Origin: Salegentibacter lacus
GTDB taxonomy: Bacteria > Bacteroidota > Bacteroidia > Flavobacteriales > Flavobacteriaceae
Reading direction: 5' to 3'
NCBI RefSeq assembly: GCF_020164555.1
Contig: NZ_JAIQZB010000003.1
Span: 62,001 to 126,000 of the forward strand
DNA length: 64,000 nucleotides
The translations under genes were made by a program, and so were the position numbers. Positions 22,666 through 64,000 of this stretch are shown here, piece after piece. Numbering within the stretch: position 1 is the first letter of the stretch; each line of letters begins with the position of its first letter. The notes under the pieces are model-generated. The model was not told the origin of the DNA. It did no database searches and saw nothing but the letters and a program-made list of their open reading frames with translations.

Positions 22666-23535
22666 TTATCTTGCATCAGAAGGATTTACTCCATAGTGTT
22701 TTTTAAAGGCTCGAGAAAAATGAGAAAGACTTTTAAATCCGCATTGTTGAGCTACGATATTGAGCTTAGTATCAGTATCCAAAACCAGCTCTCTAGCTCT
22801 TTCTAACCTCTTTTCCCTGTGAAATTCTGCGATTGTTTTTCCGTGGATTACCTTAAACCCCCTTTTCAATAGGGTGGCATTAGTATTTAACTCATCTGCA
22901 ATTTGTGGTATTGGTTTTAGAGGAGAATCCAGATTATCCATTAAATAATGGTAAAGGCTTTCAATAAGCTTTTTATTTTTTGAAAGGTTAAATTGTCTTT
23001 TAGGATTTTGAGCTTTAATAAATAGCTTTTCTCTAGTCCATTCATCTTTAGCTATTGTCTTGACTGCTGACAGAATAAAAATATCATCCTGGTTTTTTTC
23101 AAAATGAGTAATTCTAGTATTCATTAGTAAAAATAAATTTTCCTTAAGTCTAAAATTTAAGTTGAAGGATCGGTTAAACTTTTTTGAGACTATAGCTTCT
23201 TTAACAATAGTAATTGAAGCATTATCAAGAATAAAATTCAGATTACGTAAGTGGTCTCCTTGAAAAAGTGTCGTAGAACCTGAATTATAGTCGAGGATTT
23301 GGAGTTTCTTATCAACTAGAAGTATAATATGATTGAGGTAGTTAAATTCATTTTCCGGGGAATGGGCTGGAATACTTTCTTTTAGGACACCGGCTAACAT
23401 ATTTAATAAAACACTGATAGTAGAGAGTTTATTATTTAGGTTACTGACTTTAATGCGTTTATCATAATCTCCATTTGCCAACGCAGTGATCAGGCGAGTG
23501 ATTTGATCGAATTGTTTATCATCTGGAAAGTACAT
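22666..23535 (-). CDS. Cytoplasmic HAMP-like/PAS-like AraC-family regulator
   Basis: A 289-residue protein without signal or membrane segment. Residues 5-50 look like a HAMP helix pair (ITRLITALANGDYDKRIKVS), then a PAS-like segment (LLVDKKLQILDYN), and a C-terminal AraC domain with two helix-turn-helix units (IAEFHREKRLERAR and LNIVAQQCGFKSLSHFSRAFKKHYG, cited in part). It is only two bases downstream of the STAS-like gene and clearly paralogous to 58853-59773, which has the same partner. Confidence 0.85.
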   Translation of the reverse strand: MYFPDDKQFDQITRLITALANGDYDKRIKVSNLNNKLSTISVLLNMLAGVLKESIPAHSPENEFNYLNHIILLVDKKLQILDYNSGSTTLFQGDHLRNLNFILDNASITIVKEAIVSKKFNRSFNLNFRLKENLFLLMNTRITHFEKNQDDIFILSAVKTIAKDEWTREKLFIKAQNPKRQFNLSKNKKLIESLYHYLMDNLDSPLKPIPQIADELNTNATLLKRGFKVIHGKTIAEFHREKRLERARELVLDTDTKLNIVAQQCGFKSLSHFSRAFKKHYGVNPSDAR

Positions 23536-23537
23536 AG

Positions 23538-23921
23538 CTACCTTTTTATGGGATGTTTTGCTAAAAAATCAAGTGCCTTTAATCTATTTTCAAATACTCT
23601 GGTGGGGACATTGGGAATACTGGTGGAAAGATAAAATTGAGCGGTAGATGTGGAATGGGGGTAGTTTACAAGCAAGGCTACTGCTGTAGCTTGAATGGAT
23701 CCTTCTTTTGCTAAGTAATCCATAGCATCTTTATCTGCCTGGATGACATTACGCAAATCACAAAGAATGGGATATTCTTTTTCGTTTTGAATGGATAATC
23801 TAAGTTTTAAGAGTTGTTTTGCTCGGGGCAGGTTCAGGGTTTCTATTGGAGCATAAATAAAGTGTAGGATATCTTTTTCAATCCAAACTTCCGCAAATTT
23901 ATTTTGTGCCCTTTTATTCAA
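23538..23921 (-). CDS. STAS-like protein (DUF7793-like)
   Basis: A 127-residue soluble protein with alternating strands and helices: FAEVWIEKDILHFIYAP, ARAKQLL-like helix, YPILCDLRNVIQADKDAMDYL, AVALLVNYP and VFENRLKALDFL. The layout resembles STAS/SpoIIAA-like folds used as switch proteins, without the usual phosphorylated Ser being certain. The paralogue at 58461-58829 aligns along its length (YAIFCDTSGIIEADFEALTYL). Cotranscribed with the AraC regulator; probably a partner or sensor for it. Confidence 0.75.
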   Translation of the reverse strand: MNKRAQNKFAEVWIEKDILHFIYAPIETLNLPRAKQLLKLRLSIQNEKEYPILCDLRNVIQADKDAMDYLAKEGSIQATAVALLVNYPHSTSTAQFYLSTSIPNVPTRVFENRLKALDFLAKHPIKR

Positions 23922-24017
23922 TGTAATAAGCTTTGCTATCGAATGTTGTAATTTAATGATTTCTACTTTATTAAATAATAAAAAAATTGACTTCGAGGGT
24001 CATTTAATTTCATTCAT

Positions 24018-24044
24018 AGTCAAAATTTAGGCTACTATTTGACT
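24018..24044. promoter_or_regulatory. Inverted repeat GTCAA-N15-TTGAC upstream of the STAS-like/AraC operon
   Basis: AGTCAA (24018-24023) and TTGACT (24039-24044) with 15 bases between. The same half-sites with the same spacing lie 73-97 bases before the paralogous operon at 58461. Here it lies about 98-122 bases before the minus-strand start at 23921 and 113 bases before the plus-strand gene at 24157. A second short inverted repeat, TGAC-N7-GTCA, is at about 23988-24002. Probably an operator for the AraC-family protein. Confidence 0.65.
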
Positions 24045-24156
24045 TTTTAGACTAAAATTTTACTTTACGGATCATTTCCCTGGTTAACTTAAATTCAAAT
24101 TGTTAAGTCTTTAAAAAGATTTTTTAGCTTGAGTTTGTTAATCAAAAAATAGGGCA

Positions 24157-57292: not shown

Positions 57293-57928
57293 CTATTCCA
57301 CCTCCAGGCTAAAGCTGTTTTGGGTATTATATTTTTCTGGTTTTCCAATGGAAACCATATAGCGATCGTAAGCTGCTTTTTTGAGCCATTGTGCCTGGTA
57401 ATCATCCTTCAATATAGCACTTTCTGCTGCCTCGGCTGACAGGATAGACGCCAATTTGTAATCCTTAGTATTATCGCTGTGATGATAAATAAAAGCAGCG
57501 TAGAACTTATCACTAGGCTTTTTTATCAGACCATCATTATAAAGGTCTTTTGTAAGCTTTAATCTTTTTGAATCCCGTTGTTCTAACTTACTTAAATAAG
57601 GTATAAAGGATTTTAATTGTTTTCGGTCTTGTTGGTCCGTTTTATATGCATATTCCAGTTTTTCACTGACGTTTCCAGAAGTTATGACTGCATTTTCATA
57701 AGGTCTAAAAATGGAAACAACCATGCCAAAAACACATATAACGATAATTAGCAAAGGGAATTTAAAATAGCGAAAATTCACTTTTCTAAAAACCTGAATT
57801 AGGCCAGCGATTATTATAAAAATTAAAGCTACCGCACTAATGGGAAGTAAAATCAATTCGAAGGAATTTGAAAAAAAGCATATTAGCCCAATTATTATAA
57901 GGAGGATAAAAAATAAAATTTTCTTCAT
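57293..57928 (-). CDS. Membrane-anchored protein of unknown function (211 aa)
   Basis: Three N-terminal hydrophobic segments (FFILLIIIGLICFF, ILLPISAVALIFIIIAGLI, FPLLIIVICVFGMVVSIF) followed by a helical soluble domain (LSKLEQRDSKRLKLTKDLY, cited in part, KAAYDRYMVSIGKPEKY). The soluble part resembles the DUF6624-like domain found in Bacteroidetes, tentatively. Convergent with the serine hydrolase. Confidence 0.7.
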   Translation of the reverse strand: MKKILFFILLIIIGLICFFSNSFELILLPISAVALIFIIIAGLIQVFRKVNFRYFKFPLLIIVICVFGMVVSIFRPYENAVITSGNVSEKLEYAYKTDQQDRKQLKSFIPYLSKLEQRDSKRLKLTKDLYNDGLIKKPSDKFYAAFIYHHSDNTKDYKLASILSAEAAESAILKDDYQAQWLKKAAYDRYMVSIGKPEKYNTQNSFSLEVE

Positions 57929-58363: not shown

Positions 58364-58388
58364 GTCAAATCCATTTTTGTTACTTGAC
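58364..58388. promoter_or_regulatory. Inverted repeat GTCAA-N15-TTGAC upstream of second STAS-like/AraC operon
   Basis: GTCAA (58364-58368) and TTGAC (58384-58388), spaced 15 bases exactly as at 24019-24043 before the paralogous operon. It lies 73-97 bases before the ATG at 58461. Shared half-sites, spacing and position suggest the same type of operator, perhaps bound by the AraC-type proteins. Confidence 0.65.
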
Positions 58389-58460: not shown

Positions 58461-58829
58461 ATGTATGAAGATGAATATGCGAGAATTTGGATTGAAAACG
58501 ACATTCTATTTCTGGAATACCAGCATGGACTTGAGCTCACCCAGAAAGTAGCTCGTGTGGTAGTAAATAGTCGCATCACCTATCAACAGAATAGGGAGTA
58601 TGCAATATTTTGTGATACCTCCGGTATTATTGAAGCTGATTTTGAAGCCCTTACTTATCTTGCCCTGGAAGGCTTACTTCTTATAAAGGCTATAGCATTT
58701 TACCCAAAATTCCCTCCAAATATACTTCTAACTAAATTCTTCCTGGAAACCCTTCAAGAAAATATACCGGCTGATATTTTTGAAACTAAAAACCAAGCTA
58801 TAAACTTTCTTATACCCTACAGTAAATGA
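58461..58829 (+). CDS. STAS-like protein (DUF7793-like), second copy
   Basis: A 122-residue soluble protein, colinear with that at 23538: EYARIWIENDILFLEY, ITYQQNREYAIFCDTSGIIEAD, cited in part, FEALTYLALEG, AIAFYPKFPPN, FETKNQAINFL. The predicted fold is alternating strand/helix as in STAS domains. 23 bases ahead of the AraC-type regulator. Confidence 0.75.
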   Translation: MYEDEYARIWIENDILFLEYQHGLELTQKVARVVVNSRITYQQNREYAIFCDTSGIIEADFEALTYLALEGLLLIKAIAFYPKFPPNILLTKFFLETLQENIPADIFETKNQAINFLIPYSK

Positions 58830-58852
58830 AATAGCACCTAAAGTGGAGAGTT

Positions 58853-59773
58853 ATGGAACGTGAATTAACTAGGGAGAGTCTAGCAGGTGTGCACCGTATG
58901 CTGTATGAAATAGCAAAAGGAAATTTTGCGTATCAAATTAAGCGTACGAACCATCGCGATGAATTGGAGGGACTAATAGCCCTTCTAAATATAACCGTCC
59001 AAAAATTAAATAAGAATAGGAACCAATTTTTATGGTTTAAAAGGTACAATGAAATTGTAACGATAAGAACTTCAAGCTTCTTACTAAGTAACGATCTTAA
59101 AATAATTGATTATAAGTGGGAGGGAAGTGCTCTTAAAAAAAACACCCAGTCACTGGATATTAGAGGCAATGATTTTGAAATGTTACTGATGTCGGGATAC
59201 AGGCGGCAATGGCGGAAGGACATCCAAAAGTTCATTAAGGGAGAACCTACTTTTATAAAACTTTTACTGAGGTATGAATTCTACAAACATTTAGAGATTA
59301 AACAACCATCAGTACTAACCAAAGTAGGCGGAAAAAATGAAATAAAGTTTATCGTCACCTCTTCGTATTTAGATATTCAAAAAGATGAATTATTCAATGT
59401 CACAGAAAACTCCAGGATAAATAAGATTTCTATCTGGAATCAGCAACTCTTCCGGAATATTGAAGAGTATATCCTGGACCATATTAAGGAGCCTCCAAGG
59501 AAAAATTACGAACTGGCCAGGATTTTTAATACCAATGAACATAAAATTAAAACAGGCTTTAAAAAAGTAGTAGGACTAACTCCTGCCCAATACCATAAAA
59601 AACATCGTATCATACAGAGTAAAATCCTGATTGAAAATACCGACTATTCATTGCAGGACATAGCTGTTAAAATGGGCTTTAAAACCTATCCAAAATTTTC
59701 CAGGTATTTTAAAAGGGAGGTGAAAATGACGCCCAAAGGATACCGGAAACGCAGAAAAAATCCTAGCATTTAA
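58853..59773 (+). CDS. Cytoplasmic HAMP-like/PAS-like AraC-family regulator, second copy
   Basis: A 306-residue protein, no membrane segment. A HAMP-like start (LYEIAKGNFAYQIKRTNHRDEL), a PAS-like middle (FLLSNDLKIIDYKW), and AraC helix-turn-helix pair at the end (LARIFNTNEHKIKTGFKKVVG, cited in part, LQDIAVKMGFKTYPKFSRYF). Alignment with 22666-23535 is clear over the whole length. The combination HAMP without membrane anchor is unusual. It may control the DUF6520/M16/SusD locus that follows. Confidence 0.85.
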   Translation: MERELTRESLAGVHRMLYEIAKGNFAYQIKRTNHRDELEGLIALLNITVQKLNKNRNQFLWFKRYNEIVTIRTSSFLLSNDLKIIDYKWEGSALKKNTQSLDIRGNDFEMLLMSGYRRQWRKDIQKFIKGEPTFIKLLLRYEFYKHLEIKQPSVLTKVGGKNEIKFIVTSSYLDIQKDELFNVTENSRINKISIWNQQLFRNIEEYILDHIKEPPRKNYELARIFNTNEHKIKTGFKKVVGLTPAQYHKKHRIIQSKILIENTDYSLQDIAVKMGFKTYPKFSRYFKREVKMTPKGYRKRRKNPSI

Positions 59774-59981: not shown

Positions 59982-60248
59982 ATGAAAACTAAAGTTTTGT
60001 TACCCATGTTGGCGTTTATATGTGCCATAGGGATGATGTTTGCCAACCCGTTTGTAGAAGCTGATCCGACTTTGGATTATGTTGAAACTGAGAATGGAAT
60101 AAGATCTATTCAAGAATTGGAGTGTGGTAGTGGAGATGAACAATGTAGAGTTCAATTCTCTGAAAATGGACCGATTTATGAAGTGTACGACGACATGAAT
60201 CTTCAAACACCAAAATTAGGTAGTGGGCAGGTGATTCAATTATTTTAA
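59982..60248 (+). CDS. DUF6520-like small secreted peptide precursor
   Basis: An 88-residue precursor with signal peptide (LLPMLAFICAIGMMFANPFVEA) and a 60-residue mature part with two Cys (LECGSGDEQCRV) and a C-terminal hydrophobic end (GQVIQLF). DUF6520 family members are small exported peptides of unknown function in Bacteroidetes, as I recall, often near TonB/SusD and redox genes. It has its own terminator. Confidence 0.72.
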   Translation: MKTKVLLPMLAFICAIGMMFANPFVEADPTLDYVETENGIRSIQELECGSGDEQCRVQFSENGPIYEVYDDMNLQTPKLGSGQVIQLF

Positions 60249-60317: not shown

Positions 60318-63185
60318 CTATAAATTTTTTCCTATTACAAATTCGTATAGATATTCATCTTTGAATAACACATTTGCAGATTCCTTAATATCTTCGGGAC
60401 TCAGTGTTTTTATAAAATCAAACTTTTTCTTTGGATCTATCCATTCCGTATCATATCTATAGTGTGAGTATAATCTATTTTGCATTTCTCTATTCGATTT
60501 AATTCTTCCATCTGGTACTGATAAAAACCTTAAACGCTTTAAACTTTGTTCTAGTAATTCTTCTGTAATCAAATCAGATTTTAAATTATTTATTATTTGA
60601 GAAAATTCTTTACGTAGTAAAGGATATTCTTCAGGTAAACAATTAAAACTAGCACCAATTGAATATTGGTTTATTTTTTCATTAAACTCTCCTACTGCAC
60701 CGGTTACGTATAATGCATATCCTTTTTCGAATCGTAAATCCCAAACCAATTTATTCACCACAGCTCCTAAAGCCTGAATCCTTAATTTTTCTTTCCAATC
60801 AGGTTTTATGTTAGTTGCTTTTATATATTTTGGTTTATAAAGCACGTTACTTTTATTGTAATTTCCTGGAAAAACAAATTCCTTATAAAAGGGGCCTTTT
60901 GGTAAAGAGTTCTTAGTTAATTGTTTAGATTCAGGCGATGATTCAGTATGGTCATTAGGTAGATTTCCCAGATATTTATTAAATATTGGAAGGACTGAAT
61001 CTTTCTTAAATTCCCCACTTACGATAAACGTAAATTCATTCGAGGCTTGAAATATATTCCGATAGATTTCGTGTCCGCGGTTCATATTGGTTTTCTCCAA
61101 ACCTTTAAAACGCTCTGTGCCCGTTAACACCTCAGATGAATCTCCGAGAACTTTTCTAATCAACACTCTCAAATCGGTATCTTTTAGGTCACTAGAAGGA
61201 TTTTTATAAAACCTTTTCTGATCTTTTTTCCAATCTTGAAAGGCATCTTTACTTTTATTTGGCTGGGTAAAATATAGGTAAATAACCTGCAACATTTTTT
61301 CCAGGTCTGTAGGGGAAGCTCCTATTTTTATTCCGCTTTCTAAATTGTCCAAGTATAAATGAATACCTCCCCACCATAGACTACTATTGGCTAGATAGCG
61401 CTGTATTTGAAATTTATCAAATCCTCCTGCGCCACTATTTTTAATGAAGCCTGGGGCATTAACAGCAGAGAAATAATCTTCGTGAGGAAAATCCAGGGCA
61501 CCAATAGGTGCAATACCGTGAATCAAGATATTATCCTGCTCTACACCAGGTGAGGGTTTAAAAGGTTTCAGAATTAGATTAACTCCGTTTTTTAATTTGA
61601 ATTTCATTGCTCCAGATGCTCCTACACCCATATCTTCGATTTTTCCTTCTTTAAATTCATTAATTTTATTAGGACTTAAAAGATATTTAGGAACGGGGGG
61701 AGGTGAATAGACATGGATGCTTTCTTTATCAATTTCTTTTATCCAATTCCGAATTTCATTCTCCTTATACAGTAATTTTTGATGATCTGAAGAAGCTATT
61801 ATTCCAATGTCCTCGGGCATCGAAAAGTTTTCTTGTCGAATAAACTGGTTAAAATCATCTAATTTGAAATTTGAGGCCCAATTTGAAAAATTTTCCAGAC
61901 TATCAATTTGGATGGTTTCTTCGTTAAGAAAATGAGTTTTTATTGCCTCTATCCAATATTCCTGCTCATTATTATTTGAAATAGCATGGAGCTGTCTTTC
62001 CATTGCTTCCTTAAATTCGGAACCAGAAACACCGTATTTCTGAAGCTGCTTTAAAATTTGAAAAGTCTTTTTCAAAGCTTCCTCTTCCTTACCGTTTTTG
62101 ATGGATAATTTTAGTCTTAAAGATAATGGCAGAATCCCTCTCTGAAACATATTGGCGCTGAAGGGACTATTATAAACATTCGATGCTTCTCTAAATCTTT
62201 TATTTAATATATCCTGAAAAATACTCCACTTATATTTTCGCTTAAGGACTTCAAAGTTACTGCTAAGATTGAGCATTGATTTATCTCTAAAATGTAGATT
62301 AAAAAGCGTAGTAGACGCTTCACTATTTTTATGTTTAGTGTTACCGTTCACTACCACAAACCTGGGAGGCTGATTCAAAAAAATAGAATCATAATTTACA
62401 GGTTGTTTGGGATTTTGTTTTACCGGAATATCTGACAAACGTTTTATTATCTCTTGTTCAATTTTATCAATGTTATCCAACGAACCAACAACAATAACTC
62501 CCATCAAATCGGGTCGGTACCAGTCTTTATAAAAATTTTTTAATTTTTCAGGTTCAAAATTTCTGAGATGCATAGAAATATCGGTCAAGTTTTGGTGCCC
62601 AGGAAGGAGTTGCCTTTTTAGTTTATTTCTCACTATGGATTTATCCAAATTATCTCCGCTTCGCTCAATAAACTCCTGAATCATAACCTCACGTTCACTG
62701 TCTATATCTTGAGGTGTCATTTTAAGTCTAACTGCAATATCTTCAAACCATAATAAACCTGTTTTTAAAGCTTCGATATTTTCGTCGGGAGAAAGATATA
62801 TGTATTCAGTAAATCTCTGGCCGTAATGAGCTTTAAGATCAAAACGAGACATGTTATTTCTATTTAAAAGTTCAGTATGATTTTGAATTCCCTTAGGAAA
62901 ATTTTCAGTTGTTTTAAAAGCCATATGCTCCACAAAATGAGCAATATCAGCCTGACTACTATCCTGGTTATGCACTCCCACCCGTACTAAAAGCTTCAAA
63001 TGAATAGTTGGCTGTGAATTCGGTACTGACTTTATATAATATTTCATACCGTTTTTTAACTTTCCCTCCCTGAAATTTCTTTCAGTCGTTAGGCTGGTAT
63101 CTAGAGAGGTTTGCCCAAACCCTAAAAATGATAGAATCATGAAAGAATGGGGAATGAGCTTATATATATTTTTAAATAAAACCAT
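60318..63185 (-). CDS. M16-family (insulinase-type) zinc peptidase
   Basis: A 955-residue protein from ATG 63185, one base after the SusD stop; a longer frame to 63287 would overlap SusD and is rejected. Signal sequence (HSFMILSFLGFGQTS), then the inverted zinc motif HFVEHMAF near residue 83 with the downstream Glu in EREVMIQEF, and four M16 domains of the pitrilysin type, the second pair inactive. It would degrade peptides in the periplasm, perhaps those imported by the SusCD pair. Confidence 0.9.
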   Translation of the reverse strand: MVLFKNIYKLIPHSFMILSFLGFGQTSLDTSLTTERNFREGKLKNGMKYYIKSVPNSQPTIHLKLLVRVGVHNQDSSQADIAHFVEHMAFKTTENFPKGIQNHTELLNRNNMSRFDLKAHYGQRFTEYIYLSPDENIEALKTGLLWFEDIAVRLKMTPQDIDSEREVMIQEFIERSGDNLDKSIVRNKLKRQLLPGHQNLTDISMHLRNFEPEKLKNFYKDWYRPDLMGVIVVGSLDNIDKIEQEIIKRLSDIPVKQNPKQPVNYDSIFLNQPPRFVVVNGNTKHKNSEASTTLFNLHFRDKSMLNLSSNFEVLKRKYKWSIFQDILNKRFREASNVYNSPFSANMFQRGILPLSLRLKLSIKNGKEEEALKKTFQILKQLQKYGVSGSEFKEAMERQLHAISNNNEQEYWIEAIKTHFLNEETIQIDSLENFSNWASNFKLDDFNQFIRQENFSMPEDIGIIASSDHQKLLYKENEIRNWIKEIDKESIHVYSPPPVPKYLLSPNKINEFKEGKIEDMGVGASGAMKFKLKNGVNLILKPFKPSPGVEQDNILIHGIAPIGALDFPHEDYFSAVNAPGFIKNSGAGGFDKFQIQRYLANSSLWWGGIHLYLDNLESGIKIGASPTDLEKMLQVIYLYFTQPNKSKDAFQDWKKDQKRFYKNPSSDLKDTDLRVLIRKVLGDSSEVLTGTERFKGLEKTNMNRGHEIYRNIFQASNEFTFIVSGEFKKDSVLPIFNKYLGNLPNDHTESSPESKQLTKNSLPKGPFYKEFVFPGNYNKSNVLYKPKYIKATNIKPDWKEKLRIQALGAVVNKLVWDLRFEKGYALYVTGAVGEFNEKINQYSIGASFNCLPEEYPLLRKEFSQIINNLKSDLITEELLEQSLKRLRFLSVPDGRIKSNREMQNRLYSHYRYDTEWIDPKKKFDFIKTLSPEDIKESANVLFKDEYLYEFVIGKNL

Positions 63186-63186
63186 A

Positions 63187-64000
63187 TTAATAGCCTGAAT
63201 TTTGAGATAGGTTTGGATTCTTCGAACGCTCTTCAGCTGGTATAGGGTACAACACATCTGTGTCTTGCCAATTGGGCTTGATATCACTTAAAATATTAGT
63301 AGCCATATTTGTTCGTGTTAGGTCAAGCCAACGGTGTCCCCATTCGGTAAAAAGTTCTTTCCGGCGCTCTATAAGAATCTGATTCATTAGATCCTCCTCA
63401 GAAATTTCAGGATTCATTTCTGATATTAAATCTAATCCAGCTCTTTTTCTAATGATATCCAAATCAGCAATGGCACCGGGTAGGTCTCCTTGATTTAATT
63501 TTGCTTCTGCTCTTATAAGAAATTGTTCTGAAAGGCGTAAAACCATAGAATATTCTGTAATGTTATCTATACTATTTCCATCTTTATATTTATAGGCGAA
63601 ATAGCTATCACTGCCTTCGAAATATCCTATCCAGTCAGTAAGGCGCTTATCTTCCTCTTCAAAGGAACTCACCAGGTTTCTGTGTAACCTAAGCTGTGTA
63701 AAAAATGGAACAAAGGGATCGATTATAAAGGTCAAACCTTCATTGGTATATGTTAACCTACCACCGCCTCCTATTGGTGAAATTTGCCAAATTGCTTCCT
63801 GGCTATTGGCAAGAAAAACCTGATTCAAATCTTCCAGGATTTGATAAGAATTAGACTGAGCAATCACTTCACTACTTAATTCCTGAGCCATTTCCCAATT
63901 TTCAAGGTATAAATGTACTCTGGCTAATAAGGCTACGGCCGCAAAACGGTTAACCCTTGAGCGGTCATCTTCCCGGTACTCAGGACTGAGTAAGGCTATC
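63187..64000 (-). CDS. SusD/RagB-family outer-membrane lipoprotein, C-terminal part
   Basis: The minus-strand frame is open to the window edge, so this is the C-terminal 270 residues. SusD landmarks: RFAAVALLARVHLYLENWE (TPR-like), then VLRLSEQFLIRAEAKLNQG, cited in part, AIADLDIIRKRAGL, ILIERRKELFTEWGHRWLDL (cited in part) and LYPIPAEERSKNPNLSQNSGY at the end. SusD caps a TonB-dependent SusC channel and binds the cargo; SusC should be further right. Cotranscribed with the M16 peptidase. Confidence 0.9.
   Translation of the reverse strand, partial: IALLSPEYREDDRSRVNRFAAVALLARVHLYLENWEMAQELSSEVIAQSNSYQILEDLNQVFLANSQEAIWQISPIGGGGRLTYTNEGLTFIIDPFVPFFTQLRLHRNLVSSFEEEDKRLTDWIGYFEGSDSYFAYKYKDGNSIDNITEYSMVLRLSEQFLIRAEAKLNQGDLPGAIADLDIIRKRAGLDLISEMNPEISEEDLMNQILIERRKELFTEWGHRWLDLTRTNMATNILSDIKPNWQDTDVLYPIPAEERSKNPNLSQNSGY

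Follow-up and report, generated by a model that had tools for sequence, protein, structure and literature searches.

HAMP modules relay signals from membrane sensors, and textbook AraC members carry a sugar- or ligand-binding head; the sites of the AraC/XylS family are direct repeats lying about two helical turns apart. The regulators described here share the C-terminal AraC DNA-binding domain of these one-component proteins, and the 20-21-bp spacing of the direct repeats found upstream matches the habit of the family. Unlike the textbook members, they carry a HAMP-like and PAS head instead of a sugar- or ligand-binding one and, in the group with strong DUF7793 matches, are accompanied by the gene of a STAS-fold partner. 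The partner is similar in fold to the partner-switching proteins SpoIIAA and RsbS; unlike in those systems, its neighbour is a transcription regulator or a histidine kinase.

Downstream of the regulators, the parallel is to the Fus-type import systems of Proteobacteria (FusA/FusC, YddB/PqqL), in which, according to PMC6793856, a M16 peptidase gene lies beside that of a TonB-dependent outer-membrane receptor. The same neighbourhood, seen from gene order alone, is found in Salegentibacter lacus, in the 64,000-nt stretch analyzed here (the window). Compared with those systems, the receptor here is a SusC with SusD, the hosts are Bacteroidota, and the locus additionally encodes a small secreted-type protein together with its regulator. 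In the open literature searched, no papers on DUF7793 or DUF6520 were found, nor was the combination of DUF7793, HAMP-PAS-AraC regulator and cassette, in searches which mostly required all terms at once and are weak evidence. The preliminary description of this DNA had considered the design unmatched to any described system: the combination, on such weak evidence, likewise appears unmatched, and the parts are of known kinds.

The reading preferred here, with a probability of roughly 0.55, is that of a STAS-gated HAMP-PAS-AraC regulator controlling an exchangeable cassette of secreted peptide, peptidase and importer, for which we infer the contact between the partners, the DNA binding, the direction of control and the use of the payload.

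Two DUF7793-AraC pairs and their relatives

The genes of the two pairs are reported below, with the matches supporting each assignment.

22666..23535, minus strand: AraC-type regulator of the first pair, 289 aa (HTH_18 3e-20); in the model, HAMP-like helices within residues 7-54, PAS at about 65-162, AraC DNA-binding domain at about 185-289
23538..23921, minus strand: DUF7793 STAS-like protein of the first pair, 127 aa (PF25056 2.2e-37, 128 bits)
58461..58829, plus strand: second DUF7793 STAS-like protein (PF25056 2.5e-30, 105.2 bits)
58853..59773, plus strand: AraC regulator of the second pair, built like the first (HTH_18 1.3e-18)

Both DUF7793 proteins exceed the Pfam gathering cut-off of 26 bits, and open reading frames and Pfam matches bear out the two-gene unit which had been proposed at 22666 and its repetition at 58461-59773. 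Identity between the pairs is 34% for the DUF7793 proteins and 24% for the AraC proteins. The DUF7793 frame of the first pair starts with TTG, as do the ORFs of L011 and L012, two related loci. The S. lacus genome contains four DUF7793 genes, each followed by an AraC gene. In Salinimicrobium marinum (L013 5001-8580) two pairs adjoin, with a reverse gene between them which, by sight, resembles window 57293-57928.

Searching named genomes through DUF7793 gave a sample of 35 related loci. An AraC gene lies downstream of DUF7793 in all 34 evaluable loci, a count which cannot show that this AraC type needs DUF7793, since the loci were found through the latter. The divergences of the two proteins correlate (rho 0.83, in the 23 loci with all four genes compared below), and their conservation as neighbours, on which the preliminary description depended, is thus supported. 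In Salegentibacter tibetensis DUF7793 and AraC are separated by a gene that occupies two frames (L015 5430-6323); a near-threshold match to the IS1595 transposase ribbon suggests that it is probably an IS1595-like element.

A structure model of DUF7793, based on 38 related sequences, has a STAS fold (pLDDT 90). This predicted model aligns to the STAS chain 4xs5_A with Z 12.6 (rmsd 2.4, 109 residues), and both to the SpoIIAA complex chain 1tid_B and to RsbS 6jhk_A with Z 11.2, in line with the STAS-like partner originally supposed. Unlike SpoIIAA and RsbS, the residue which we take, by motif, to correspond to the SpoIIAA phosphosite is Ser in only 7 of 38 DUF7793 sequences and Asp in the first-pair protein, a composition not fitting a SpoIIAA-like phospho-switch, and Cys54 is invariant (38/38).

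The model of the first AraC protein, built from 37 sequences, has a mean pLDDT of 80 and a pTM of 0.43, so that the relative placement of its domains is not reliable. HAMP-like helices are located at residues 7-20 and 36-54; residues from about 65 to 162 align to PAS-fold chains with Z of about 10-11, and the AraC domain to 6swi with Z 15.7. Pfam HTH_18 was found in all 37 family members, HAMP in 12 (E up to 0.5; best 2.5e-5) and PAS_10 in 13 (E up to 0.5); for PAS_10 the L001 relative scores 22.7, narrowly exceeding the cut-off of 22.1. Neither window AraC protein matches Pfam HAMP at E up to 1, and the term 'HAMP-like' is used for this reason; Pfam PAS gave no match in them either. Hydropathy over 19 residues reveals no clear membrane segment in the two proteins (best values 1.35 and 0.72), and reaches at least 1.6 in only one of the 37 family members. 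Model helices, family Pfam matches and hydropathy together uphold the HAMP-like start without membrane anchor that had been read from the translation.

Some relatives depart from this arrangement. AraC proteins with a similar head, identified by a HMM built from the first 62 residues of the AraC proteins, occur in the DUF6520 loci L052 and L058 (7.8e-9 and 1.3e-4), with no DUF7793 within the stretch examined. In a weaker subgroup of ten loci (L069-L078) DUF7793 is found with PAS histidine kinases, PAS sigma-54 activators and/or CheY-like receivers, mostly judged by sight, with Pfam run on L074; the head HMM has no match there. Tandem copies of DUF7793 were observed at several loci of this subgroup. 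Among ten distant loci of the phylum, the head HMM matches histidine kinases directly 3' of DUF7793 at L079, L080 and L087 (1e-14 to 1e-17); at E up to 1 it hits nothing else in these ten loci. Hydropathy in the three kinases peaks at 1.52, 0.87 and 1.84, and the peak of 1.84 falls at residue 416, past the head. At the other seven (L081-L086, L088) neither a HAMP-like head nor AraC lies beside DUF7793, and the neighbours are unrelated.

These departures weaken the STAS-gated reading, as DUF7793 is not obligate at L052 and L058, the head HMM has no match at L069-L078, head and AraC are both missing at the seven distant loci, and the phosphosite Ser is rare. The AraC relatives lacking DUF7793, the kinases, activators and receivers beside other DUF7793 proteins, the proximity of the fold to SpoIIAA- and RsbS-type proteins and the Ser, where present, would also suit an anti-anti-sigma-type DUF7793 operating via a kinase or sigma pathway elsewhere, its adjacency to AraC being due to co-transcription, with no contact. 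This explanation is considered unlikely, since DUF7793 of the strong group was never seen without AraC, with which it co-diverges, and since the protein replacing AraC at the three distant loci again bears a HAMP-like head. At those loci the HAMP-like head remains next to DUF7793 and a different output follows it; this pattern suggests that STAS and HAMP form a control unit that can be transferred.

Palindrome and direct repeats as candidate operators

Three sequence elements upstream of the two pairs were evaluated as binding sites.

24019..24043: GTCAA-N15-TTGAC before the first pair, exact
58364..58388: GTCAA-N15-TTGAC before the second pair, exact
24026..24066, minus strand: 20-bp direct repeat in two copies, candidate AraC operator (lag 20, z 5.2)

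The palindrome, a motif picked after inspecting the sequence, has two exact copies in the window for 0.05 expected, and none of 100 shuffles had two; when one mismatch is allowed, the copies are 2 for 2.02 expected by chance. Across the S. lacus genome the motif is found three times, compared to five for the reversed pattern, and is therefore not enriched; what is notable is its two positions, before both pairs. The identical spacing that had been claimed for the two operons applies to the arms, and not to the distance from the start codon (-122 and -97). At L011 and L012 the variant GTCAA-N15-TTGAT, with one mismatch, is located at the same place. The palindrome is absent before the two other DUF7793 copies of the genome (L001, L003), and in a set of 88 loci exact copies are confined to those of S. 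lacus. Its role as a conserved operator, as put forward in the preliminary description, did not hold, the repeat missing before orthologues. The half-site GTCAAAT is present in 9 copies in 27 upstream regions (shuffle mean 0.84, maximum 4 in 300), and in 8 copies, for 0.27 expected, in eight regions picked after GTCAA had been seen there.

Direct repeats of 20-21 bp are commoner than the palindrome upstream of the pair throughout the family. Of 40 upstream regions, 27 were chosen by eye so as to leave out near-identical ones, and their self-similarity at lag 21 gave a combined z of 14.2, with 17 of 27 regions above 2; lesser peaks are found at lag 40 (z 5.8) and lag 20 (z 3.9). Many loci are closely related, so that these z-scores, and the counts over loci in general, are not independent. 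The repeat at 24026-24066 contains in its second copy the GTCAAAT arm of the palindrome, and a repeat with equal lag and place is found at L011. The reading is weakest at the second window pair, where the best 20/21-bp repeat lies at about -202, away from the palindrome.

The latter observation, along with the exact copies at both window operons and the variant at L011 and L012, would favor an operator consisting of the palindrome itself, bound head to head. This is judged very unlikely: as a family-wide operator, the palindrome is ruled out by the lack of exact copies outside S. lacus in the 88 loci and by the prevalence of direct repeats, and it is missing even at L001 and L003.

The repeat from the pair's promoter is also present in front of the following operon at 15 of 31 loci, when at most 1 of 60 shuffles is allowed to score as well, and at 21 of 31 on a looser level (at most 3 of 60). 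This shared repeat was not seen in the remaining ten, the second window pair, L011 and L012 among them, where 4 to 56 of 60 shuffles were as good; the lack of a shared promoter repeat at these ten loci also weakens the STAS-gated reading. The score is 42.1 with the promoter of the own locus and 37.2 with those of loci having an AraC below 30% identity; the own promoter ranks first in 18 of 31 loci.

Control of the SusC promoter by AraC through the same repeats was considered and rejected: no clear sign was detected in the two SusC promoters examined, the best case being the second window locus, where 2 of 60 shuffles were as good. Separately, the SusC leaders of two S. lacus genes (L066 9595-9944, L067 4792-5141) have an exact stretch of 30 bases in common (z 13) and, by sight, much further likeness, including a GC-rich inverted repeat just ahead of SusC; the L066 leader gave no Rfam match at E up to 1.

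The downstream cassette and its exchange between loci

Beyond the second window pair the locus continues with DUF6520, M16, SusD and SusC.

59982..60248, plus strand: DUF6520 small protein, proposed payload of the second pair (PF20130 2.9e-22)
60318..63287, minus strand: M16 peptidase, longest ORF (PF00675, PF05193; motif HFVEH)
63187..64000, minus strand: SusD, 3' part of a gene that leaves the window, with SusC next to it (L066); SusD and TonB-receptor families

This cassette, to which MauE is often added, was missed in the earlier reading, as was its absence at the first pair. The DUF6520 protein has a hydrophobic, signal-like N terminus (peak of 1.96 at residue 3), judged from hydropathy, and two Cys in its putative mature part. 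For the M16 gene, an internal ATG near 63185 is the likelier start, as the ORF end overlaps, by sight, the next gene.

In 149 genomes of the family, 24 DUF7793 genes over 100 bits and 17 weaker ones were retained, leaving out nine below the Pfam cut-off. DUF6520, counted at E up to 0.001 and on the same strand, follows 23 of the 24 within 8 kb, the exception being the pair at 22666-23921, and none of the 17. It is present in all 17 genomes with DUF7793 over 100 bits, compared to 25 of 149 overall (Fisher 1e-16), and each of the three DUF6520 genes found in the S. lacus genome is downstream of a pair. In the named loci, DUF6520 was detected by a HMM built for the purpose in 28 of 33 evaluable ones; MauE was found in 16 of 35 and a convergent M16 in 21 of 35 within the stretch examined. 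Because L036 and L020 are cut short, the downstream counts exclude them. Eighteen of the 24 places having DUF6520 and no DUF7793 were also examined: MauE is present in 16, M16 peptidase in 9 and SusD in 16, with other regulators upstream, by sight, in many. In the Flavobacterium locus L025 (6805-7878), a part fused behind MauE has no Pfam match at E up to 0.01.

A known RNA, DUF805b (RF02914), scores above its gathering threshold in the DUF6520 leader of five of eight sources, the window, L003 and L045 not being among the five; in the window and L003, the only matches to known RNAs are far under gathering scores.

L001 352-385, minus strand: DUF805b RNA in the DUF6520 leader
L014 6382-6415: the same
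L016 6467-6500: the same
L019 6485-6518: the same
L033 6467-6500: the same

The four genes were compared in the 23 loci having all of them, L068 contributing only a C-terminal piece of the peptidase because of a contig end. Divergence of AraC and M16 is hardly correlated (rho 0.13), which rules out a tight match between regulator and peptidase. Between peptide and M16 rho is 0.30 (partial 0.27), and between peptide and AraC 0.52; co-divergence is thus only moderate as an indication of mutual specificity of peptide and peptidase, and the argument is carried more by individual swaps. L067 and L045 are 25% identical in AraC and 33% in DUF7793, and 86% in the peptide and 90% in M16. Conversely, L068 and L044 share 96% of AraC and 97% of DUF7793, and 24% of the peptide and 25% of M16 (C-terminal piece); in L035 and L037, from one genome, the values are 93%, 96%, 42% and 18%. 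DNA identity shifts at the start of the DUF6520 gene or inside the gene in L035/L037, L021/L022, L018/L017 and L067/L045; for L044/L068 the far part of the comparison is spoiled by the contig end. On these alignments, peptide and peptidase are exchanged between loci independently of the regulators.

Beside the first pair (22666-23921) no DUF6520, MauE or M16 was found; the related loci L011 and L012 carry all three. The pair could be a decaying leftover of cassette loss, a rather unlikely account given that both its reading frames are intact and that dN/dS of its DUF7793 is 0.124 against L011 and 0.141 against L012; these values are averaged over the whole divergence and compatible with a recent release, and dS of the orphan AraC is saturated. 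The orphan pair may have its targets at promoters elsewhere in the genome.

Proposed mechanism and meaning

Pairing, folds, domain order, repeats and the mosaic of the cassette are computed features. In the STAS-gated reading preferred here, the DUF7793 switch would bind the HAMP-like, or the PAS, head of the neighbouring AraC protein and set its activity. An AraC dimer would then bind the tandem 20-21-bp direct repeats before its own operon and, at about half of the loci, also before the next one, which encodes a cysteine-containing small DUF6520 protein with a signal-like start, often together with MauE. Farther on, many loci carry M16 peptidase, SusD and SusC as a convergent block. Peptide and peptidase form a cassette that passes from locus to locus by recombination and leaves the regulator pair in place; the first pair lacks this cassette, and its two genes are intact.

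Placed next to a STAS-fold partner, in a DNA-binding protein with no clear membrane segment, the HAMP-like head departs from the membrane-sensor role of this module. DUF7793 and DUF6520 gain a link to peptidase and importer through the cassette, whose pattern of swaps offers a direct route to testing the matching of peptide and peptidase. A wider interpretation is put forward tentatively and is somewhat doubtful: the loci might represent a new envelope module of Bacteroidota, in which a STAS and HAMP-PAS-AraC switch drives an exchangeable cassette, with a secreted, cysteine-bonded peptide matched to its own M16 and SusCD. Strains would swap peptide specificities and keep the control circuit, and the peptide might serve as a shuttle, signal or competition factor that the cell produces itself, takes up again and cleaves with the partner peptidase.
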